From a virus, in the IMG/VR virus record IMGVR_UViG_3300032217_001310, positions 1 to 21,664 of that record: a stretch of 21,664 bases of DNA; one strand, 5' to 3'. A program made the translations under genes and the position numbers. The number at the start of each line of letters is the position of its first letter. Positions within the stretch are counted from its first letter, which is position 1. The notes beneath the pieces are model-generated. The model was not told the origin of the DNA, made no database searches, and saw nothing but the letters and a program-made list of their open reading frames with translations. This document shows positions 1,519 through 16,134 of this stretch, piece after piece.

Positions 1519-4500
1519 ATGGCAATAAGAATGCAACAGCGAAGAGGTACTGCTGCTCAGTGGATTTCTCTTAATGAAGGTGCTGGCCCAATTCTAGGTG
1601 CTGGCGAAATTGGTTTTGAAAGCGACACTGGCAAGTTTAAAATTGGTGATGGTACAAATCACTGGGTAGATTTAGCATATTTTGTTGATATTGATAAGAT
1701 GATTGAAGGAGCACCAGGGCTTCTAGATACAATTAATGAACTTGCTGCTGCAATTAATGATGACCCAGCATTCTTTACTACAGTTTCAACTGCACTTGGT
1801 ACAAAAGCACCTCTTGCATCCCCTACTTTTACAGGTACAGTAACTCTTCCTTCTGGAACTGTCACATCAACAATGATTGCAGATGGAACCATTGCTACAT
1901 CAGACATTGCAGACTCTGCAGTGACTTCAGCAAAGATTGCTAATGACACAATTGTTGATGCAGATATTAATACTTCTGCAGCAATTGCCCAATCTAAAAT
2001 TTCAGGTCTTACAACAGATCTTGCTGCTAAAGCCCCTCTTTCTTCCCCAACATTTACAGGAACAGTTTCAGGTGTTACAAAAACTCATGTTGGTCTTGCA
2101 AACGTAGACAATACAACAGATGCTGCAAAACCAGTGTCAACTGCTACTCAAACAGCACTTGACCTTAAGGCTAATCTTGCTTCACCTACTTTTACAGGTA
2201 CTGTAGCGGGTATTACAAAGACAATGGTAGGCTTGGGATCAGTTGATAATACAGCAGATTCAGCAAAGCCTGTTTCAACAGCAACACAGACAGCCTTGGA
2301 CGCTAAGGCACCACTAGCATCACCTACATTTACAGGTACAGTAAATGCAGCAGATCTAACACTTTCTGGAAATTTAACAGTAAATGGAACAACAACAACG
2401 GTTAATAGTAATGCAATTAATGTTAATAATCAAATAATTTTTGAAGGTGCTACTGCTGATGCATTTGAAACTACACTTACTGTAGTTGATCCTACTGCGG
2501 ATAGAACAATTACATTCCCTGATACAACTGGAACTGTAGCACTAACATCAGATGTTACAACACATGGAAACCTATCAGCAGCACATGGTGCTACAGGCGC
2601 AGTAGTAGGAACAACTAATACTCAAACTCTTACAAACAAAACTTTAACTTCTCCAGTAATTAATACACCAACTGGAATTACAAAATCAGATGTTGGTCTT
2701 GCTAACGTTGATAATACAACAGATGCCAATAAACCCGTATCTACAGCAACCCAAACAGCACTTGATCTTAAGGCTAATCTTGCTTCCCCAACATTTACAG
2801 GAACTGTAACACTTCCTTCAGGAACAGTTACATCAACAATGATTCTTGATGGAACTATCTTGAATGCAGATATTAATGCTTCAGCAGCAATTGCATTATC
2901 TAAGTTAGCAACAGACCCACTTGCTCGTGCAAACCACACTGGATCACAAGCAGCATCAACAATTTCAGATTTTACAGAAGCAGCACAAGATGCAGTTGGA
3001 GGAATGTTAGGCACTGGATTAACATATAATGACGCTGCTAATACAATTACAGTAGATACAACAAATATTCAACTAAGAGTAACTGGCGTTTCTGATACTG
3101 AAATTGGATATCTTGATGGAGTCACTTCTGCAATTCAAACTCAAATAGATGCTAAAGCACCAACAGCATCACCCACATTTACTGGTACAGTTTCAGGCGT
3201 AACTAAGTCAATGGTTGGACTAGGTTCTGTAGATAACACTGCAGATACTGCTAAACCAGTATCGACTGCACAGCAAACAGCACTTGATCTTAAAGCACCA
3301 ATTGCTTCCCCAACATTTACAGGTACAGTATCTGGTGTTACAAAAACCCACGTAGGACTTGGTAACGTAGATAATACTTCTGACGCCAATAAGCCTGTTT
3401 CAACTGCTACTCAGACAGCACTTGATGCTAAGTTAGCATCTGCAACAGCAGCAACTACCTATGCTCCAATTGCTTCACCAACATTTACAGGTACAGTTTC
3501 AGGTGTTACAAAAACTATGGTGGGACTTGGTTCTGTTGATAATACAGCAGATGCAGATAAACCAGTTTCTTCAGCAACAACAACAGCACTTGCTTTAAAG
3601 GCTAATCTTGCTTCCCCAACATTTACAGGTACTCTATCAGCAGCAGATTTAACAGTATCTGGTAATTTAACTGTTAACGGTACAACAACAAACCTTAACT
3701 CAACTAACCTAGTTATTGAAGATAAAAATATTGTTCTTGCAGATGTAGCAACACCTACAAATACTACTGCCGATGGCGCTGGTATTACTGTAAACGGCAC
3801 TACAAATAAAACATTTAACTGGGTTAATGCAACTTCTGCTTGGACTTCATCAGAACACATAGATCTTGCTTCAGGTAAGTCATATTATGTAAATGGAACA
3901 GCATTAAAAGATGCCACAGAAACACTTACAAATAAAACAGTTGCTCTTGGCTCAAATACAGTATCAGGAACAATTGCACAATTTAATACAGCGGTTACTG
4001 ATGCAGATTTTGCAACAATTGCAGGAACAGAAACATTAACAAATAAAACATTAACATCTCCAACTTTGACAACTCCAGTACTTGGTACACCTGCTTCGGG
4101 AACTCTTACTAATGCAACTGGATTGCCTTTAACTACTGGTGTAACTGGAACTCTCCCAATTGCAAATGGTGGTACAGGCGCAACTACTGCATCTACTGCA
4201 GCAGCAGCATTGCTTCCATCACAAACATCTAACTCAGGCAAATATCTTACAACAGATGGATCGGGAACACTTTCTTGGGGAACTGTTTCAGGATATTCAG
4301 CACCTACACTTGGTTCAACTTCAATTGCTTCTGGAGCAACAGTTACAACAATTGCAGGTCTTACATCTGTAACATCAACAGGATTTACAGGAGCACTTAC
4401 AGGAAATGCTTCTACTGCAACCACACTTCAAACAGCAAGAGCAATTAATGGAACCAACTTTGATGGTTCAGCAGCAATTACAATCACTGCAGCCAATCCA

Positions 4501-4809
4501 AATGCTCTTACAATTGGAACTGGACTTTCAGGAAGTTCTTACACAGGCTCTGGAGCAGTTACAATTGCTATAGATTCAACGGTAGCAACACTTACAGGAA
4601 CACAAACTTTAACAAATAAAACTCTTACATCTCCAACAATTAATAGTGCTACATCAAATAATATTACTTTAACTGGAACTGTTACAGCAGGTGGTTCAGC
4701 AGGAACTTCAGGATATGTTCTTCAATCAACTGGAAGTGGAGTTCAATGGGCTGCATCAGCAGGTGGCGGTGGAGCAGATGAAGTTAAACTTGTAATGGGT
4801 GCTTACTAA
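1519..4809 (+). CDS. Long repetitive tail fibre protein with Mtd-like N-terminal domain
   Basis: A 1096-residue protein. ATG 1519 has a GGAGG Shine-Dalgarno at 1506-1510. Residues 1-50 ([11 protein letters not shown], then [21 protein letters not shown]) match the short N-terminal domain found in many phage fibres and in the Bordetella phage tropism determinant, probably a virion-attachment part. From about residue 100 to 705 there are nine ASPTFTGTV-type units and six VGLxxVDNTxDxxKPVSTA units, the phage tail repeat family. A module near residues 710-810 (VEDKN-like [15 protein letters not shown], then [18 protein letters not shown]) is shared with the 1-1002 gene. Later come repeated [10 protein letters not shown] motifs and a C-terminus with a glycine run (AGGGGADEV). 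No catalytic motif or intramolecular chaperone was recognised. It probably forms a trimeric host-contact fibre. Confidence 0.8.
1804..3640 (+). repeat. Phage tail repeat array inside the long fibre gene
   Basis: Nine SPTFTGTV units lie between 1816 and 3636. Six VGLxxVDNTxDxxKPVS units begin near 2089, 2227, 2692, 3211, 3352 and 3520. Spacing is irregular because other modules are inserted, for example a [13 protein letters not shown] module near 2359. Synonymous divergence between copies shows that the units are old protein-level repeats and are not a recent DNA expansion. Confidence 0.8.
3649..3939 (+). repeat. Fibre module shared with the gene at 1-1002 (copy at about 181-471)
   Basis: Both copies encode about 97 residues with the same order of motifs: [11 protein letters not shown], DKNI, VATPTxxTADGxGIT, KTFNWV, AWTSSEH, LASGKxYYxNG and TETLxNKT. 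The same architecture in two neighbouring genes points to duplication or module exchange between the fibre genes. Confidence 0.75.
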
Positions 4810-4812
4810 AAA

Positions 4813-4848
4813 TAAAAGTACTTGTCTTATTATTTGAGACTACTTTTA
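4813..4848 (+). terminator. Probable terminator hairpin after the fibre gene
   Basis: TAAAAGTA (4813-4820) pairs with TACTTTTA (4841-4848), and GTCT (4824-4827) pairs with AGAC (4837-4840). A 3-base bulge lies on the left side and the loop is 9 bases. It starts four bases after the stop codon of the long fibre gene. The U-rich part is inside the right arm and no clean T-run follows, so terminator strength is uncertain. Confidence 0.45.
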
Positions 4849-4931
4849 AAATTAAGAAGTTCTAATCTTCAACTATACCTTTATACTTATATGTTTGTGC
4901 TTAAAAACAATTTTTAATGTGTTAAATTCTA

Positions 4932-4940
4932 TGCTACAAT
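4932..4940 (+). promoter_or_regulatory. Extended -10 promoter TGCTACAAT before the reductase gene
   Basis: TG, one base, then TACAAT at 4935-4940. The predicted start of transcription (about 4947) falls inside the left arm of the hairpin at 4944-4972. It is the only promoter-like site seen directly upstream of the ribonucleotide reductase gene. Confidence 0.5.
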
Positions 4941-4943
4941 AAG

Positions 4944-4980
4944 AGAGTACTTCTAAATTTATGAAGTACTCTTTTATTTT
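4944..4980 (+). terminator. Perfect 10-bp hairpin with T-run, abutting a promoter
   Basis: AGAGTACTTC (4944-4953) and GAAGTACTCT (4963-4972) are perfect inverted repeats with a 9-base loop, followed by TTTATTTTTT (4973-4982). This is a classic intrinsic terminator shape. It lies between the site at 4932-4940 and the reductase start at 5005, so it could stop read-through from the fibre genes or act on the short reductase leader. Confidence 0.65.
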
Positions 4981-5004
4981 TTAGTTAGAAAGGCAAAAAA
5001 TATA

Positions 5005-7035
5005 ATGTCAGATACTTTTTCTTTTAGTTTATCAGATGAGTTTGTAAATAAATATAGCACAATTCCAGCACCATTTGGTTTTTCCGATGCAGGATCAAAC
5101 TCACTTGGAGAGATTACCTTTATTAGAACATATTCCAGAATGAAGGAAAATGGAACAAAAGAAAGATGGCATGAGGTTTGCAAGCGTGTAATTGAGGGTA
5201 TGTACTCAGTTCAAAAAAACCATGCTAAAGAAAATAGACTGCCATGGAATGATAATAAAGCCCAGAAGTCTGCACAAGAAGCCTTTCAAAGAATGTTTGA
5301 ATTAAAGTGGACACCACCAGGTCGTGGCCTTTGGGCATTTGGTACACCTATGACTATGGAAAAACGTAACTCTGCATCTCTTCAAAATTGTGCTATGGTT
5401 TCAACTCGTGATATTGATAGAAATGATCCAGGTGCCCTTTTTGCTTGGGTAATGGATGCATTAATGCTGGGTATTGGGGTTGGATTTGATACCCTTGGTC
5501 AAGATAAGGAAATGCCTATTTATGGCCCTACAGAGCCTTCAGTGACCTATGAAATACCTGATACTCGTGAGGGTTGGGTAGAGTCTGTAAGATATTTAAT
5601 AAACTCTTATTTACGTCAAAATCAAGCAATTCAAGAGTTTGATTATTCTTTAATTAGACCACTTGGTTCTCCTATTAAGGGGTTTGGTGGGGTGGCAAGC
5701 GGACCTCAGCCATTAATGGATTTACATAATAGAATCCGTAAAGTAATTGGATCTAGAGTTGGAGAAAAGTTAGACTCTCGTGCAATTGTAGATATTGTTA
5801 ATTTAATTGGAACTTGTGTTGTATCTGGAAATGTTCGTAGATCTGCAACGCTTGCTCTTGGAACACCAGAAGATCAAGGTTTTATTAATCTTAAAAATCC
5901 AGAAGTATTTCCAGAACGAAATTCCTACGATTCAGAAAATCCAGGATGGGCATGGATGAGTAATAATTCTATTGCTGCTGAAGTTGGTACAAAATATGAA
6001 GACTATGTTGATTTAATCGCAGATAATGGAGAGCCAGGATTTATTTGGTTAGATGTTGCAAGAAATTTTGGTCGTCTTGCAGATCCTGCAGATGGAAAAG
6101 ATTATCGTGTAATGGGATTTAATCCTTGTGCAGAACAACCACTTGAATCATATGAGTTGTGTACTCTTGTAGAAGTTCACCTTAATCGACATGAAGATAA
6201 AGAAGACTTTATCCGCACATTAAAATTTGCATATCTTTATGGAAAAACTGTAACGCTTATGCCAACACATTGGCAAAACACAAATGGAATTATGCAACGC
6301 AATCGTCGAATTGGAACATCTCTGACAGGTATTGCATCTTTTGCAGATACTAAGGGCATGCCTGCAGTGCGTGATTGGATGGATTCTGGATACAATAAAA
6401 TTCGTCATTATGACAAGAAATACTCTGAATGGCTATGTGTTCGTGAATCAATTCGTGTAACAACAGTTAAACCATCAGGCTCTGTTTCACTCCTATCTGG
6501 TGCAACTCCAGGAGTTCACTGGGGACCAGGTGGTGAGTTCTATCTTCGTGCTATTCGTTTTGGAAATACTGATCCAATGATGCATTTATTTAAAGCAGCG
6601 GGATATAAAATTGAACTAGACTTAGTATCAGCAAATACATCTGTAGTATATTTTCCAGTAGCATCAGGACATCCACGCTCTGAAAAAGATGTAAGTTTGT
6701 TTGAAAAGATTGGACTTGCAGCAACTGCTCAAAAATATTGGTCTGACAATGGCGTATCTGTAACACTATCATTTGATAAAGAAACAGAAACTAAACATAT
6801 TGCTCCAGCACTTCATCTTTATGAGGGAGAACTTAAAGCGGTTTCATTTTTGCCGATGGGTAATAAAACATACCCACAACAGCCATATACTCAAATAACA
6901 AGAGAAGAATATAACTCTTATGTAGGTACAATTGGTAAAATTGATTGGTCTGCTATTTATGATGGAGTAGAAAATCTTGAAGCACAAGGTGAGGCATACT
7001 GCTCAACCGATGCTTGCGAGATTAAGTTATATTAA
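5005..7035 (+). CDS. nrdJ: Adenosylcobalamin-dependent ribonucleoside-triphosphate reductase (class II)
   Basis: A 676-residue enzyme that reduces ribonucleotides to deoxyribonucleotides using a radical generated from coenzyme B12, feeding phage DNA synthesis in the cytoplasm. All hallmark residues of the monomeric Lactobacillus leichmannii-type enzyme can be placed: LQNC at C129 and C386 in YELC (the redox pair), C375 and E377 in NPCAEQ (thiyl radical site and general acid/base), and the C-terminal CSTDAC at C666/C671 (the thioredoxin-linked pair). The 11-residue spacing from C375 to C386 equals that in the family. VKPSGSVSLLSGATPG (about 488-503) fits the conserved phosphate-binding loop. 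It is shorter than the ~739-residue L. leichmannii enzyme, mostly between the first Cys and NPCAEQ. AAAGG at 4989-4993 may serve ATG 5005. The gene is isolated among structural genes. Confidence 0.93.
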   Translation: MSDTFSFSLSDEFVNKYSTIPAPFGFSDAGSNSLGEITFIRTYSRMKENGTKERWHEVCKRVIEGMYSVQKNHAKENRLPWNDNKAQKSAQEAFQRMFELKWTPPGRGLWAFGTPMTMEKRNSASLQNCAMVSTRDIDRNDPGALFAWVMDALMLGIGVGFDTLGQDKEMPIYGPTEPSVTYEIPDTREGWVESVRYLINSYLRQNQAIQEFDYSLIRPLGSPIKGFGGVASGPQPLMDLHNRIRKVIGSRVGEKLDSRAIVDIVNLIGTCVVSGNVRRSATLALGTPEDQGFINLKNPEVFPERNSYDSENPGWAWMSNNSIAAEVGTKYEDYVDLIADNGEPGFIWLDVARNFGRLADPADGKDYRVMGFNPCAEQPLESYELCTLVEVHLNRHEDKEDFIRTLKFAYLYGKTVTLMPTHWQNTNGIMQRNRRIGTSLTGIASFADTKGMPAVRDWMDSGYNKIRHYDKKYSEWLCVRESIRVTTVKPSGSVSLLSGATPGVHWGPGGEFYLRAIRFGNTDPMMHLFKAAGYKIELDLVSANTSVVYFPVASGHPRSEKDVSLFEKIGLAATAQKYWSDNGVSVTLSFDKETETKHIAPALHLYEGELKAVSFLPMGNKTYPQQPYTQITREEYNSYVGTIGKIDWSAIYDGVENLEAQGEAYCSTDACEIKLY

Positions 7036-10532: not shown

Positions 10533-10928
10533 ATGAATCCTTTAATTAATCAAAAAACTGGTAAACCTATTGTTGGAAATGTACGAAGAAGAGTTATTGA
10601 AAAAAACTATGACTGGGGCTTGTATGTCTGGAAAAAATCAAACGGTAAATGGTTTACCGATGGTGAAGGAAATGTATTAAATATAGAATCAAAAAAAGAT
10701 GACCAAGAGCAACTTAAAAAAATTAAAGAGGCAGCAATTTATTATGGTGATGATGGTACGGGACATGCCGTTTTTGTTCCAGGATTAACAAGAATATCAG
10801 ATGAAGAACATTCAGAACAAAAAGATAGAATGCTTCAAGGGTTAATTCCATCAAGAAACGACTTGGGTGCTTGGAAAGCAGCACAAGATACACTTGATAA
10901 GCATGGAAGGGATGTCTTTGATGCCTAA
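10533..10928 (+). CDS. Conserved-looking hypothetical protein upstream of portal
   Basis: A 131-residue protein that I do not recognise. It is hydrophilic, with a compact N-terminal part rich in aromatic residues (YDWGLYVWKKSNGKWF at about 27-42), a middle charged helix (DDQEQLKKIKEAAIYYGDD) and a C-terminal segment (DRMLQGLIPSRNDLGAWKAAQD). No membrane segment or signal peptide is visible. I chose ATG 10533 over the in-frame GTG 10527 because the extended -10 at 10517-10525 predicts transcription starting at about 10532-10533, and the GTG would then lie upstream of or at the very start of the transcript. The 3' end overlaps the portal start by 8 bases, which suggests translational coupling. 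Its position fits a virion or DNA-packaging accessory protein, but no function can be assigned. Confidence 0.6.
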   Translation: MNPLINQKTGKPIVGNVRRRVIEKNYDWGLYVWKKSNGKWFTDGEGNVLNIESKKDDQEQLKKIKEAAIYYGDDGTGHAVFVPGLTRISDEEHSEQKDRMLQGLIPSRNDLGAWKAAQDTLDKHGRDVFDA

Positions 10929-12567
10929 TGATGAGAGTTATGAATATATTTCCGCTTCCTTAAATAGCGAAGATCGTGAAACAAATAAATTTGAATCCCA
11001 TGATGTTTTTAATAAATCTTGGGAAGAGTTAAAAAATTTAGGTGGATTAGATAATAACTTTAAACGTCGTGCAGCCAGGGTATCAAAAGCAATTGGTCCA
11101 AATGATCCACAGTATATGTCTATTCAAAATGTTGATCAAAATAGCCTAGCATACTTAGACTCTGCTAATGCAGATGCCATGGGAATAAATGGTGCTGGAT
11201 CTAAAACAATTAATCCTGGAACTGTTTATAGAAATGGTTATGGAATTTTTGATGTTATTACACCGCCATATAATCTTTATGAGTTAGCAAATTTTTATGA
11301 TACATCTTTTGCAAACCATGCAGCAATTGATGCGAAAGTAGAAAATGTTGTTGGACTTGGTTATTTCTTTGATGTAACAGATAGAACAAAATTAAGGTTT
11401 GAAACAGCAGAAGATCCAGGCTCAGTAGATCGTGCTCGTAAAAGAATTGAACGTGCAAAAATTGAATTGCGTGACTGGATAGAATCACTTAATGATGATG
11501 ACAGTTTTACAAAGACAATGGAAAAAGTTTATACAGATGTTCAAGCAACTGGTAATGGATATATTGAAATTGGCAGAACTACTGGCGGAGAAATTGGTTA
11601 TGTAGGACACGTACCATCTACAACAATGAGAGTTCGCAGATTGCGTGATGGATATGTACAGGTAATTGGTCCAAAAGTTGTATACTTTAGAAATTTTGCA
11701 GCAAATAATAAAAATCCACTTACAGATGATCAACGTCCAAATGAGATCATTCATATTAAAGAGTATTCTCCATTAAATACTTTTTATGGAGTTCCAGATA
11801 TTGTTGCAGCATTACCATCATTAATTGGTGATCAACATGCATCTCAATACAATATTGATTATTTCCAAAACAAGGCTGTACCAAGATATATAATTACACT
11901 TAAGGGTGCAAAACTTTCTGCAGATGCAGAAGATAAGATGTTTAGATTCCTTCAGACTGGACTAAAGTCTCAGTCCCATAGAACTCTTTATATTCCACTT
12001 CCTGGAGATCAAGACCATACTAAGGTTGAGTTTGATATGAAGGCTATTGAAAATGGAATTCAAGAAGGATCATTTAAAGAATACCGTAAGCAAAATCGTG
12101 ACGATATCTTAATTGCTCATCAAGTTCCTATTTCAAAACTTGGTGGATCAGAGTCTGGCCTTGCTTCAGCACTTGCTCAAGATAGAACATTTAAAGAGCA
12201 AGTTTCAAGACCAGCACAAACACATCTTGAAAAAATTATCAATAAAATTATTAGAGAAAAAACAGATATTTTAGAGTTTAGATTTAATGAACTTACCCTT
12301 ACAGATGAAATTGCACAATCTCAAATTCTTGAAAGATACGTTAAGAATCAAATTATGCTTCCTAATGAAGCACGTGAAATTCTTGATTTGCCACAAGCAC
12401 AACATGGAGATAGTCCATTGCAACTAACTGCCAGAGCAGCAGCAGATGCTAATGCCAATTCTGCGGGTAACAGGGCAAGGGATGCACAAAGAACAAATAC
12501 TCAATCTGATGGTACAGCCACCGTATCTGGAAGAAATCCAAAGGGCGAAGGTAGAGCGTCTCAATAG
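10921..12567 (+). CDS. Portal protein
   Basis: A 548-residue portal protein, the dodecameric ring at one capsid vertex through which DNA enters and leaves. The middle of the protein has the family's layout: LYELANFYDTSFANHAAIDA (around 117-136), a stem/wing region with TDVQATGNGYIEIGR, NEIIHIKEYSPLNTFYGVPD, then an N-to-K-rich clip region and the LGGSESGLASALAQDRTF segment before the crown helices. This matches the HK97/PBSX-type portal family. The C-terminal ~50 residues are disordered (Ala, Asn, Gly and Arg-rich). The start is ATG 10921: GGAAGGG at 10905-10911 is 9 bases upstream. In-frame alternatives at 10867 (GTG), 10903 and 10912 have no comparable ribosome site. No terminase gene is adjacent. 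Confidence 0.88.
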   Translation: MPNDESYEYISASLNSEDRETNKFESHDVFNKSWEELKNLGGLDNNFKRRAARVSKAIGPNDPQYMSIQNVDQNSLAYLDSANADAMGINGAGSKTINPGTVYRNGYGIFDVITPPYNLYELANFYDTSFANHAAIDAKVENVVGLGYFFDVTDRTKLRFETAEDPGSVDRARKRIERAKIELRDWIESLNDDDSFTKTMEKVYTDVQATGNGYIEIGRTTGGEIGYVGHVPSTTMRVRRLRDGYVQVIGPKVVYFRNFAANNKNPLTDDQRPNEIIHIKEYSPLNTFYGVPDIVAALPSLIGDQHASQYNIDYFQNKAVPRYIITLKGAKLSADAEDKMFRFLQTGLKSQSHRTLYIPLPGDQDHTKVEFDMKAIENGIQEGSFKEYRKQNRDDILIAHQVPISKLGGSESGLASALAQDRTFKEQVSRPAQTHLEKIINKIIREKTDILEFRFNELTLTDEIAQSQILERYVKNQIMLPNEAREILDLPQAQHGDSPLQLTARAAADANANSAGNRARDAQRTNTQSDGTATVSGRNPKGEGRASQ

Positions 12568-12589: not shown

Positions 12590-12598
12590 TGCTATAAT
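12590..12598 (+). promoter_or_regulatory. Extended -10 promoter TGCTATAAT before the protease gene
   Basis: TG, C, then perfect TATAAT at 12593-12598, 9 bases before ATG 12608. TTGAGA at 12568-12573 could be a weak -35 with a long 19-base spacer. No Shine-Dalgarno precedes the ATG, so the mRNA would be leaderless or carry a 1-3 base leader. It is the nearest clear promoter upstream of the capsid gene. Confidence 0.68.
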
Positions 12599-12607
12599 AG
12601 ATTCACC

Positions 12608-13882
12608 ATGTTTATAAATAAGGCTAATTTGACGACTGAAGGCAATAACGTTACAATATCCATGCCAATTGGCAAAGTCGATATTGAGCGTAGAATGGTC
12701 TCTGGTTTTGCTACACTAGATAATATTGACAAGCAAGATGATATTGTAGACACAGGTGCAAGCCTAGAAGCATTTAAGAATTTCCGTGGAAATCTAAGAG
12801 AAATGCACCAAGCAAATGCTGTTGGAAGAATTGTTTCTTTTAAAGAAGATAAGTATTTTGATCCAAATTCAAAAAAGTTTTATAGTGGAGTTTATGTATC
12901 TGCCTATGTTTCAAAGGGTGCACAAGATACTTGGGAAAAAGTTATTGATGGAACTCTAACTGGATTTTCTATTGGTGGAAGCATTAATAAAACTGAAGAT
13001 GCATATAACGCAGAACTAGATAAGTCAATTAGAATTATTAAAGAATATCAACTACATGAACTTTCACTTGTTGACAATCCAGCAAATCAATTTGCAAATA
13101 TTGTTTCAATTGAAAAAGTAAATGGAAAAAATGAAATTAGTGGTTATTTATCAAAAGCAGAAATTAATAATGTTTTTTGGTGTAATTCAGACGATATCGT
13201 TCAGGTTTCTGAGAAAATAAATAATGAATGTCCATCATGCACAAAAACAATGGAAAATATTGGTTTTGTTGAAAAGAATGATACAGACAATATAGACACA
13301 ATAAAGTTCTTAGTTGATAGTGCTAAAGGCATTAATACTTCTAAGATTACAAAGGAGGCAAACCAAATGACAGATGAAACAACAACAGTTGTTGAAAATG
13401 TTGAGGTCGCTCCAGAGGCAGATGCTACTACAGTTGAAAAGAATGACGCTTCAGTTGAAGCAACTGCTGTAGAGGTTGTTCCAGTTGAGGGTGATGTTAC
13501 TATTGCAGCAGAAGTTACAATAGAATCACCAGCACAAGCAGAAGCAACTGCAGAGGTATCAAAGTCAGATGAGACAGTCGTTTCGGCAGTTTCTGAAATT
13601 AAAGAGACTTTGACATCAGCCTTTAGCGATCTTGCAACAACAGTGAAATCTCTTCACGAACAAGTTGCAGAACTAAGTAAGTCAATTAACAGCGTTTCAA
13701 ATGAGGTCAGCGCAGTTAAGAATCAATATGATGAGTTTGGCAAGCGAGTAGATGCTGTAGAGCAAGACACCGCTTTCCGCAAGTCTGGCGATCTAGGCGA
13801 GATCGTGCAGTTTGAACCCTCAAAAGTTCAGAAATCCCTATGGGGCGGACGTTTCCTCAAAACAACCGACCTATTCAACTAA
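12608..13882 (+). CDS. Prohead serine protease fused to scaffold domain
   Basis: A 424-residue protein. Residues 1-170 look like a XkdF/S78-type prohead protease. H67 in REMHQANAVG and S121 in LTGFSIGG are the likely catalytic His and Ser, and E151 or D156 in LHELSLVDNPAN is the likely acidic residue. This enzyme would cut the capsid arm and scaffold during head maturation. Residues 186-223 hold a partial zinc-ribbon-like patch (C192, C208, C211 in CPSC). From M254 the character changes to an acidic, Ala/Val/Glu-rich segment, then a probable coiled coil (about 331-386) and a basic C-terminal segment ending LWGGRFLKTTDLFN, as expected for a scaffold. The start ATG 12608 lies 9 bases from a -10 box with no ribosome site. 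The 3' half appears to be translated separately as well (see 13367-13882). Confidence 0.8.
   Translation: MFINKANLTTEGNNVTISMPIGKVDIERRMVSGFATLDNIDKQDDIVDTGASLEAFKNFRGNLREMHQANAVGRIVSFKEDKYFDPNSKKFYSGVYVSAYVSKGAQDTWEKVIDGTLTGFSIGGSINKTEDAYNAELDKSIRIIKEYQLHELSLVDNPANQFANIVSIEKVNGKNEISGYLSKAEINNVFWCNSDDIVQVSEKINNECPSCTKTMENIGFVEKNDTDNIDTIKFLVDSAKGINTSKITKEANQMTDETTTVVENVEVAPEADATTVEKNDASVEATAVEVVPVEGDVTIAAEVTIESPAQAEATAEVSKSDETVVSAVSEIKETLTSAFSDLATTVKSLHEQVAELSKSINSVSNEVSAVKNQYDEFGKRVDAVEQDTAFRKSGDLGEIVQFEPSKVQKSLWGGRFLKTTDLFN
13351..13358 (+). promoter_or_regulatory. Internal ribosome-binding site AAAGGAGG within the protease gene
   Basis: A near-perfect Shine-Dalgarno sits inside the protease reading frame, 8 bases before the in-frame ATG 13367. 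It is stronger than the site of the protease gene itself, which has none. It is the main evidence for a nested scaffold gene. Confidence 0.75.
13367..13882 (+). CDS. Nested in-frame capsid scaffold protein (internal start)
   Basis: A predicted 171-residue product starting at ATG 13367 in the same frame as the protease gene and sharing its stop. AAAGGAGG at 13351-13358 gives a strong ribosome site at ideal spacing. The product has an acidic N-terminal half (many Glu, Val and Ala), a heptad-like helix at about residues 78-133 (SEIKETLTSAFSDLATTVK onward) and a basic tail rich in Lys/Arg and aromatic residues, which is how capsid scaffolds that bind the shell through the C-terminus look. Base composition rises from about 28% GC just before this start to 42-45% just after, and above 50% near the end, as in the highly expressed capsid gene. 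The known parallel is lambda Nu3 nested in gene C. That this start is used is inference. Confidence 0.65.
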   Translation: MTDETTTVVENVEVAPEADATTVEKNDASVEATAVEVVPVEGDVTIAAEVTIESPAQAEATAEVSKSDETVVSAVSEIKETLTSAFSDLATTVKSLHEQVAELSKSINSVSNEVSAVKNQYDEFGKRVDAVEQDTAFRKSGDLGEIVQFEPSKVQKSLWGGRFLKTTDLFN

Positions 13883-13905: not shown

Positions 13906-15036
13906 ATGTCGGAAATAACAAATAACGAAGTTCTAGAGAAGAACTATCCTGGTTCAGGTGGAGCAGGTAATGAATTCAATTCCCAAGGCGCAACAGCGTC
14001 AGGTGGAATTGGAGGAACATCCAACCCAGCAGCAGGAATTCTTGGTAATACACCAACAGCACTTGCTGGCGTAACATCAGGACCTAACGCAGTAAACCCA
14101 GTGGGTTCACTCGGAGGTATTCTTCTACCAGAGCAGGCTCGTCGCTTCATCGACTACGTGTGGGATGCAACAATTCTCGCTAAAGATGGTCGCAAAGTAA
14201 CAATGAGAGCCAACACCATTGAACTTGAAAAAGTCAATGTTGGTGAACGTGTAATCCGTGCAGCAGCACAGGGTTCTAACAATTATACAAATGCTGGTGC
14301 TACATTCTCAAAGGTAGAATTGACTACAAAGAAGATTCGTCTTGACTGGGAAGTATCAACAGAAGCACTTGAAGACAATATCGAAGGCGCAGTATTGGAA
14401 GATCATTTAGTTCGCTTGATGACCAATGCATTTGCAAACGATATTGAAGATCTTGCTATTAACGGCGATGGTGCAACAGGAGACTTCCTTTCAATTATGC
14501 GAGGATTTGTTGATCGTACAACCGATGCTGGTTCAGGAGCACACGAGGCAATTGTAACAGTTGCTGGAGATGCTTGGACAACTCCAGTTATGCAGGATAT
14601 CATCTTGGCTATGCCACGTAAGTATCGTGCACTTAAGTCAAACCTTAAGTTCTATGCTGGTACAGATGCCTTCCAAGGCATTGTAAAGCACAATGGTACA
14701 CTTGCTGATGCAATCGCAGAAGCATTTGCTGGTACTCCAGCAGGTACACCTGCAAACCGTCAAGCATACCTTGATGGCGTTGCACAAACATTTGGTAATG
14801 CTCGCACTACCCGTGTTCTTGGTGTAGACGTACAGGAAGTTCCTTACTACCCTGCAGGATATGTCGACTTGACATTCCCACAGAACCGTGTATGGGGATT
14901 CCAGCGTGATATCACTGTAAACCGTGAGTATCGTCCTAAGAAGGATACAATCGAATATACAGTATTCGTTCGCTTTGGCGTACAATGGGAAGAACTTGAT
15001 GCTGTTGCATACGCAGACGCAGCAAGCGATTCCTAA
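13906..15036 (+). CDS. Major capsid protein (HK97 fold)
   Basis: A 376-residue shell protein. ATG 13906 has GGAGGTG at 13894-13900; the in-frame ATG 13840, 22 codons upstream, lies inside the scaffold gene without a ribosome site. Residues 1-70 are a flexible Gly/Ala/Asn-rich arm (NYPGSGGAGNEF, then SGPNAVNPVGSLGG). The folded part begins near ILLPEQARRFIDYVW. The segment from WEVSTEALEDNIEG through AFANDIEDLAINGDG is typical of the HK97 spine-helix region, and the C-terminal part (VWGFQRDITVNREYRPKKDT, then FVRFGVQWEELDAVAY) fits the conserved beta core of that family. GC content is about 42-55% with C-ending codons, unlike neighbours at 22-35%, which fits selection for high expression. A hairpin follows the stop. 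The arm may be removed or used by the prohead protease, but no cleavage site can be proven here. Confidence 0.88.
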   Translation: MSEITNNEVLEKNYPGSGGAGNEFNSQGATASGGIGGTSNPAAGILGNTPTALAGVTSGPNAVNPVGSLGGILLPEQARRFIDYVWDATILAKDGRKVTMRANTIELEKVNVGERVIRAAAQGSNNYTNAGATFSKVELTTKKIRLDWEVSTEALEDNIEGAVLEDHLVRLMTNAFANDIEDLAINGDGATGDFLSIMRGFVDRTTDAGSGAHEAIVTVAGDAWTTPVMQDIILAMPRKYRALKSNLKFYAGTDAFQGIVKHNGTLADAIAEAFAGTPAGTPANRQAYLDGVAQTFGNARTTRVLGVDVQEVPYYPAGYVDLTFPQNRVWGFQRDITVNREYRPKKDTIEYTVFVRFGVQWEELDAVAYADAASDS

Positions 15037-15058
15037 TTCATTTTAGATGAATAAATAA

Positions 15059-15092
15059 GGGGGGCAGGTAACACTGCCCTCCTTTCTCATTT
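15059..15092 (+). terminator. Intrinsic terminator after the capsid gene
   Basis: GGGGGGCAG (15059-15067) pairs with CTGCCCTCC (15074-15082) with one G-U pair and a 6-base loop, followed by TTTCTCATTT. It is the most GC-rich hairpin in the window. The next gene's AAGGAG begins right after it with no promoter between, so it probably reduces expression of downstream genes without blocking it. Confidence 0.7.
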
Positions 15093-15103
15093 AAGGAGAT
15101 AAT

Positions 15104-15352
15104 ATGTCTTATCCAGGTTCAGATTCAAACAATCCAATTAATGCAGAAGGCGCATTTGCAGCAGGTGGTGTGGGTGGTGCTATTATTAGTGCTGCAGGAG
15201 GATTAACAACTGATATGGTTTTAGGACAACTTGCAGGAAATTTTACAATGGGTGATACATCTGGACCAAATGCAGTAAATCCAAGCGGAAGACCAAATGG
15301 AGTAAGGCATGCAATACAAGGTGGATTTAAAAGTCATAGTAAAAAAAGATAA
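15104..15352 (+). CDS. Small protein resembling the capsid protein's N-terminal arm
   Basis: An 82-residue protein with AAGGAG at 15093-15098 before ATG 15104. Residues 3-61 align with residues 14-67 of the capsid protein. Both begin with YPGS, continue with a GGxGG patch and AAGxL, and end with the identical SGPNAVNP followed by one residue and Gly. After this the capsid protein enters its folded shell domain, whereas this protein ends in a short basic tail (RPNGVRHAIQGGFKSHSKKR). It contains no Cys and no membrane segment. It lies directly after the capsid gene behind a terminator. It could be a minor head protein that uses the same contact site as the capsid arm, a protease substrate, or an internal DNA-contacting protein. 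All three are inference. Confidence 0.65.
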   Translation: MSYPGSDSNNPINAEGAFAAGGVGGAIISAAGGLTTDMVLGQLAGNFTMGDTSGPNAVNPSGRPNGVRHAIQGGFKSHSKKR

Positions 15353-15358
15353 GTATTC

Positions 15359-15367
15359 TGGTATAAT
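15359..15367 (+). promoter_or_regulatory. Extended -10 promoter TGGTATAAT
   Basis: TG, G, then perfect TATAAT at 15362-15367, six bases after the preceding stop codon. ATG 15385 follows with AAGGAGG at 15373-15379, so this transcript would have a short leader. Confidence 0.62.
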
Positions 15368-15384: not shown

Positions 15385-15747
15385 ATGTCAGATTTTAATT
15401 TTGAAAGCAATGATCCAACACCAGTTGTTGAAGATCATGATATTAATGTAGAAGCACCTGCAGCACCAATTGCAGAGTCAGAAGTTGTTGTAGAGGCTCC
15501 AGCAGTTGAGCCAGCAGTAGAGGCTCCAGCAGTTGTAGAGTCTGCTATAGAGCATAAGGCTGAAGAAAAGCCATCAAATGACAAGACAGCAATTTTGTAT
15601 GCGATGAAAGACTTGAAAATTTTGGGTCTTGGAATTCTACAAAAAGGTTACAATGCAGTTCCAGCAGGTAAAGCAAACAAATGGCTTGAAAAAGCATCTG
15701 TGCGTTTAGCATCTGATGAAGAAATTAAAACATATCACAATAAATAA
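15385..15747 (+). CDS. Possible head decoration protein, acidic N-terminus plus shared C-terminal domain
   Basis: A 120-residue protein; ATG 15385 follows AAGGAGG at 15373-15379. Residues 1-64 are acidic, disordered and rich in Glu, Ala, Pro and Val, with repeated EAPA-type motifs (EAPAAP, VEAPAVEPAVEAPAVVE). Residues 67-120 form a compact domain that aligns without gaps to residues 64-117 of the next gene, with 19 of 54 positions identical by my count. Shared features are LxxxGxG, GYNxV, KW and SVRxAxxEE. The domain is not one I can name. Position after the capsid gene suggests a head-associated protein with a shared capsid-binding domain and a variable exposed N-terminus, which is inference. 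It has its own promoter-like site. Confidence 0.6.
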   Translation: MSDFNFESNDPTPVVEDHDINVEAPAAPIAESEVVVEAPAVEPAVEAPAVVESAIEHKAEEKPSNDKTAILYAMKDLKILGLGILQKGYNAVPAGKANKWLEKASVRLASDEEIKTYHNK

Positions 15748-15757: not shown

Positions 15758-15780
15758 TAAAATAATATTTGGGAGGATTT

Positions 15781-16134
15781 ATGTCGTTTATCGATGAGTT
15801 TGGTAGTAAAACAGTTGGGGAACTTAAGACTTACGCTAAAGAAAATAAGATTGATTTATTTGGCGTCTCTAAAAAATCAGAAATATTAGAGGTTATTGCT
15901 TCATTTTTTCCAGAAGTTGGAAAAACAGAAGAACAATTAGATCAAATTAAAAAAACAAAAGAACCAGTAGAACAAGTTGCTGTTTTTTCAAAAAAGAATC
16001 TTTACTGGGGTGGTGTTGGTGCTTTGGTTCCAGGGTATAACATTGTTTCAAAAGAAATGTCTGAAAAATGGATTACACATAAATCAGTAAGAATTGCTAA
16101 ACCAGAAGAAGTGGCAACCTTTTACGGTAAATAA
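15781..16134 (+). CDS. Possible head decoration protein, SAP-like N-terminus plus shared C-terminal domain
   Basis: A 117-residue protein. I chose ATG 15781 over TTG 15769 because GGGAGG at 15771-15776 lies just upstream of the ATG, although the gap of 4 bases is short. Residues 8-42 (KTVGELKTYAKENKIDLFG, then KKSEILEVI) look like a helix-extended-helix fold of the SAP/Rho-N type, which in other proteins binds nucleic acid or partner proteins. Residues 64-117 are the same domain as the C-terminus of the preceding gene, with GYNIV, KW and SVRIAKPEE conserved. The pair is a tandem duplication with exchanged N-terminal halves. The head-decoration role is inference from position. The next gene starts two bases after its stop. 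Confidence 0.6.
   Translation: MSFIDEFGSKTVGELKTYAKENKIDLFGVSKKSEILEVIASFFPEVGKTEEQLDQIKKTKEPVEQVAVFSKKNLYWGGVGALVPGYNIVSKEMSEKWITHKSVRIAKPEEVATFYGK

Follow-up and report, generated by a model that had tools for sequence, protein, structure and literature searches.

Why should a virus encode, directly behind its major capsid gene, a second and much smaller gene whose product resembles the beginning of the capsid protein? The question is raised by a stretch of viral DNA of 21,664 nucleotides (IMG/VR record IMGVR_UViG_3300032217_001310, hereafter the window), in which an initial annotation had aligned residues 3-61 of an 82-residue protein with residues 14-67 of the capsid protein.

The head-gene locus and the source of the likeness

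In this 21.7-kb window the head genes are arranged in the order portal, protease, capsid and 82-aa gene, followed by two small proteins with a common C-terminal domain. The features of the locus are as follows.

10867-12567: portal
12590..12598, + strand: TGCTATAAT, extended -10 promoter-like site upstream of the protease-capsid operon
12608..13882, + strand: head maturation protease (S78-like) with a C-terminal scaffold-like coiled-coil region (phrog_9427, E 1.3e-115; Pfam Peptidase_S78)
13906..15036, + strand: major capsid protein, 376 aa (phrog_1623, E 2.8e-69; weak Pfam Phage_capsid match; tblastn matches to Streptomyces phage capsids)
13942..14136, + strand: capsid N-terminal arm and first shell residues (13-77), common to the small protein and absent from Streptomyces phage capsids
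14077..14100, + strand: SGPNAVNP in the capsid arm
15057..15084, + strand: terminator-like hairpin in the spacer between capsid and small gene (z -5.0; compensatory changes in 7 of 9 consensus pairs)
15104..15352, + strand: 82-aa arm paralogue, made up of the arm copy and a basic tail
15260..15283, + strand: SGPNAVNP in the small protein
15290..15349, + strand: tail of the small protein, with a shell-start remnant NGVRHAIQ (GIRLPxQNNF in the family) and then a basic end (KSHSKKR in the window, RGRRR in others)
15359..15367, + strand: TGGTATAAT, extended -10 promoter-like site of the next operon, directly 3' of the small gene

By profile match the 376-aa protein belongs to the phrog_1623, HK97-fold class of major capsid proteins; a PDB search with it returned insignificant capsid matches only. 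The small protein had no match in PHROG, Pfam or the PDB and is itself no member of the HK97-fold/phrog_1623 class, since its sequence stops at the shell start. AlphaFold models were poor for both, with pLDDT values of 49.5 for the small protein (40 sequences) and 38.1 for the capsid protein (42 sequences).

The reported alignment was reproduced by BLASTP, which matched residues 3-67 of the small protein to residues 14-72 of the capsid protein with 45% identity over 66 aa. The Smith-Waterman score of the two proteins was 117, against a mean of 38.4 (sd 7.0, maximum 78) for 20,000 shuffles of the small protein, and a comparison of family profiles for the small protein and the capsid arm gave a probability of 99.6 (E 5.5e-24, 66 columns). 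It had been recognized from the start that a general low-complexity Gly/Asn motif, present in many proteins of the phage, might produce such a likeness. This source was ruled out by the shuffles and by the other ORFs of the window, none of which scored above background (next best 37). The small protein is thus identified by these comparisons as a paralogue of the capsid N-terminus, with an ancestry beyond what chance and low complexity would give.

The likeness had been thought to end at SGPNAVNP, with a basic tail in place of the shell domain. The tail is indeed there, but the end point does not hold, as in relatives the homology extends past the arm into the first shell residues (TPGGILLPEQ in the capsid protein vs TPGGIRLPEQ in the small protein of L220), and the residues beyond the arm are alike (TPGGIRLPEQNNF vs TPGGILLPEQARRF). 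Because the homology reaches the first shell residues, the sequences show the small protein to be a truncated duplicate of the capsid protein that has gained a new basic tail; it comprises about the first 80 capsid residues, that is, the arm and some ten shell residues, and only its last residues are new. The net charge of the tail is +2 to +7 in the small-protein family (median +5). SGPNAVNP is identical in the two proteins, as had been noted, but the identity does not extend to the DNA: the codons differ, and 17 of the 32 identical residues in the window are encoded by different codons.

Other features of the window were observed in passing. A second duplicated pair stands right behind the capsid region (15385-15747 and 15769-16134), with a common C-terminal domain of 50 aa (38% identity, E 2e-10), and in phages that have the arm and no small gene, the next gene often ends in this domain. 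A ribonucleotide reductase is encoded among the structural genes (5005-7035; B12-dependent insertion domain, with only a short match to the barrel), and the 1096-aa protein with an Mtd_N domain encoded at 1519-4809 is probably a receptor-binding protein.

Distribution, history and coupled change

The initial annotation called for a search for the paired occurrence. A first scan of IMG/VR yielded 181 stretches encoding relatives, capsid arms included, and together with two further scans it provided 47 distinct capsid/small pairs. The small gene lies directly 3' of the capsid gene in 46 of them; the exception, L018, has a duplicated, partly scrambled capsid stretch, in which two overlapping capsid-like ORFs in different frames (3494-5696) probably reflect an assembly error or a duplication. 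When whole contigs were searched, the six with the pair had the arm in exactly two places and the nine without it (up to 112 kb) in one, the capsid gene. A third arm carrier was not seen in about 230 loci, where every carrier other than a capsid protein was the small protein; the carrier in L099 is a cut-off capsid protein. A search of 50,697 phage records gave nothing that matches the small protein, and 84,980 bacterial and archaeal genomes contained no relatives, so these tailed phages have no cultured representative and no host among them.

The arm is also kept in related phages that do not have the small gene. The window's nearest relative, L085, whose capsid shell is 91% identical, has a gap of about 105 nt in its place. 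It follows from this and other close relatives that heads of this type can be made without the small gene. Its presence requires 3 to 4 changes on the capsid-shell tree, so gains or losses took place. In a tree of arms and small proteins together, each kind forms one side of a single branch (SH-aLRT 99, from only 71 columns), and in nearly every pair roughly half of the identical residues, or more, are encoded by different codons. The single split and the differing codons point to one old duplication and not to repeated copying; recent duplication or gene conversion is ruled out by the codons. As judged from the sequences, then, the small gene arose long ago by tandem duplication of the 5' end of the capsid gene. 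Purifying selection acts on it (median dN/dS 0.31, 1004 pairs), and the partial duplication noticed in the window is therefore real and kept by selection.

A neutral relic of the duplication would fit the patchy presence of the gene, with its 3 to 4 changes, but is very improbable for a gene intact in 47 distinct pairs with dN/dS of 0.31, invariant residues and a single old origin.

The small protein and the capsid arm have also changed together. The partial matrix correlation between small protein and arm, given the shell, was 0.63 overall, a value not reached in any of 2000 permutations. Within one clade, which carries an HxH motif in the arms, it was 0.71 (0 of 5000 permutations as high), and outside this clade 0.53 (1 of 5000). 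As the shell domain lies between the arm and the small gene on the DNA, linkage alone would not give this coupling. The downstream 321-aa gene, taken as a control, gave 0.17 to 0.35. A second downstream gene (GYN) gave 0.29 to 0.65, the highest value being with the arm in the HxH clade, so that part of the coupling in that clade may be common history. The HxH motif, one per arm, occurs at the same place in both arms in this clade and in neither arm outside it, the window included; the agreement in 47 of 47 pairs amounts to one change on the capsid tree, in two genes, and is not counted as 47 events. Matched changes were also seen in the end motif (FGANSVSPSG with FGPNSVRPSG in L219; TTGPNATNP in both proteins of L087). 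Some members of the HxH clade have a decayed motif in the capsid protein (GDAQLGVNP, TSGSLGVNP), and the adjoining small protein keeps TSGPNAVNP. The sequence comparisons thus show that the small protein and the capsid arm changed together beyond the intervening shell domain.

Expression layout of the small gene

The small ORF (15104-15352) is a separate one, starting 67 nt after the capsid stop with its own start codon and an AGGAG ribosome site. The spacer before it (15037-15103) folds with z -5.0, and a simple scan found a GC-rich hairpin after the capsid stop in 42 of 46 loci. In the spacer of the window an outer stem, formed besides the terminator stem, pairs with the ribosome site of the small gene and might damp its translation.

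Five TGnTATAAT sites are present in the window (1481, 7045, 12590, 15359, and 20291), of which the first four closely precede listed gene starts, and from their sequence and placement they are probably the late promoters of the phage. Such a site was found within 70 nt 3' of the small gene in 46 of 46 paired loci, where 0.02 per 70 nt is expected from the background; none of the 46 has one between the capsid gene and the small gene. Where the small gene is absent, the site comes after the capsid gene in 62 of 63 cases. The position of the small gene between the terminator of the capsid gene and the promoter of the next operon predicts low expression by read-through, which is what we infer for the family as a whole; the small gene might still be preceded by a different type of promoter.

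Possible roles and comparison with known systems

We put at about even the chance that the small protein is a minor head protein, present in sub-stoichiometric amount and entering the procapsid through contacts of its arm. Read-through transcripts would supply it during the late burst that also yields the capsid protein, but in far smaller quantity. Its arm would then make the contacts of a capsid arm in the procapsid, either with other arms at threefold positions or with the adjacent shell, and a few copies would be built in among hundreds of capsid subunits. The basic tail might hold packaged DNA or the acidic scaffold region of the protease-scaffold protein, and in the HxH clade a metal site shared between arms would be possible. 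In phage phi12 the N-arms of the capsid protein meet in a triskelion at threefold axes (PMC8569155), and gp4 of phage Patience, a small accessory protein, is unfolded in the free state but becomes ordered within the capsid (PMC10635136). These precedents show that parts of the idea exist elsewhere; they are not proof here. More tentatively, and with the balance somewhat against it, the docking arm may have been split off as a dosage-limited gene, whose product, a tailed "arm peptide", co-assembles with the parent arms at chosen places of the shell to form a heteromeric lattice of arms evolving as a matched pair.

The initial annotation had proposed another role, in which the arm is a signal for scaffold or protease that the small protein borrows to enter the procapsid, where it is perhaps cut. 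A gene just upstream encodes an S78-type protease that includes a scaffold-like region, the duplicated part stops just inside the shell start, and the coupled change would suit a common partner as well as arm-arm contact. However, the best conserved common motif has decayed in the capsid protein of one large clade and is kept as TSGPNAVNP in the adjoining small protein. A common cleavage site would not decay in the capsid protein alone, so the protease-recognition role is unsupported; moreover, no conserved cleavage site was located, and in the Streptomyces relatives protease and capsid are present but the arm is not. A tag of this kind is accordingly unlikely as a whole, but its docking component, in which the small protein reaches the procapsid by means of its arm, is plausible from the divergence of the two arms together.

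Somewhat less probable again is an outer decoration, with both arms outside, as are the extended N-arms of some HK97-type shells, and the small protein a cement at threefold positions. Decoration genes often follow the capsid gene, and the HxH motifs are reminiscent of metal-binding trimers in tail fibres. Some decoration proteins are also known to have arms that become ordered on binding (PMC7602432). Cement proteins are usually near-stoichiometric, however, and the small gene stands behind a terminator with no recognisable promoter of its own; the basic tail, too, would suit the DNA side better.

A soluble regulator, a free arm that competes with the capsid arms, limits or shapes assembly and then leaves the particle, would agree with the low dose that the layout predicts, and in Ccm of SaPIbov5 there is a capsid homologue that redirects the capsid size of the helper (PMC8569155). 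Yet a phage seldom needs to poison its own assembly, and the conserved basic tail would have no obvious role, which makes this proposal distinctly doubtful.

The preferred reading, a minor head protein, can be set beside several known systems. The nearest named relatives of the window's capsid protein are those of Streptomyces phages (Stanwilliamsviridae: Enygma, Circinus), which belong to the same phrog_1623 family, are encoded in the same order of portal, protease and capsid, and are about 43% identical to it over residues 66-362. They have almost no arm (MSDELIEKVIRTTEVASGGGGLLNAEQ), and an arm-like small gene was not detected there. In phage T7 the minor head protein gp10B, made in smaller amount, contains the N-terminal part of the major capsid protein gp10A; the two come from one gene by a frameshift and have nearly the whole protein in common. 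Here, in contrast, the arm only is encoded by a separate old gene, and its product does not qualify as a read-through product of the 10B type. Ccm of SaPIbov5 is similar in being a capsid homologue built into the shell beside the true capsid protein (PMC8569155), but it has the full HK97 fold and is encoded by a parasite, whereas the small protein has no shell domain and is encoded by the phage itself. The gp4 proteins of Patience and Adjutor are likewise small head proteins (54 aa in Adjutor), unfolded when free (Patience) and ordered in the shell; unlike the small protein, they bind inside hexamers, and the available part of the source describes no relation to the capsid protein (PMC10635136). 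With decoration (cement) proteins the small protein shares a gene beside the capsid gene and, potentially, arms that order on binding (PMC7602432); the words "duplicat" and "paralog" are absent from the text of that review. The arm occupies the place of the delta domain of HK97, the N-terminal scaffold portion that the head protease removes there, though no cleavage site can be named and the scaffold-like region is here fused to the protease.

Arm-only capsid duplicates were not found in the literature searched, most subscription journals lying outside the search, in agreement with the impression of the initial annotation that the arrangement was undescribed. So far as this literature shows, the small protein is new, and by its sequence it would belong with the minor head proteins that share capsid sequence. 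A shell-less arm kept as a matched partner offers a natural handle on the role of the N-terminal arm in assembly, and the arm might provide a short address tag by which cargo is loaded into phage heads. The position of terminator and promoter would also account simply for how a phage keeps the dose of a head protein low. Reuse of capsid sequence is already known among minor head proteins, in the form of entire capsid proteins or of frameshift products, whereas here it is the arm, without the shell, that is reused.
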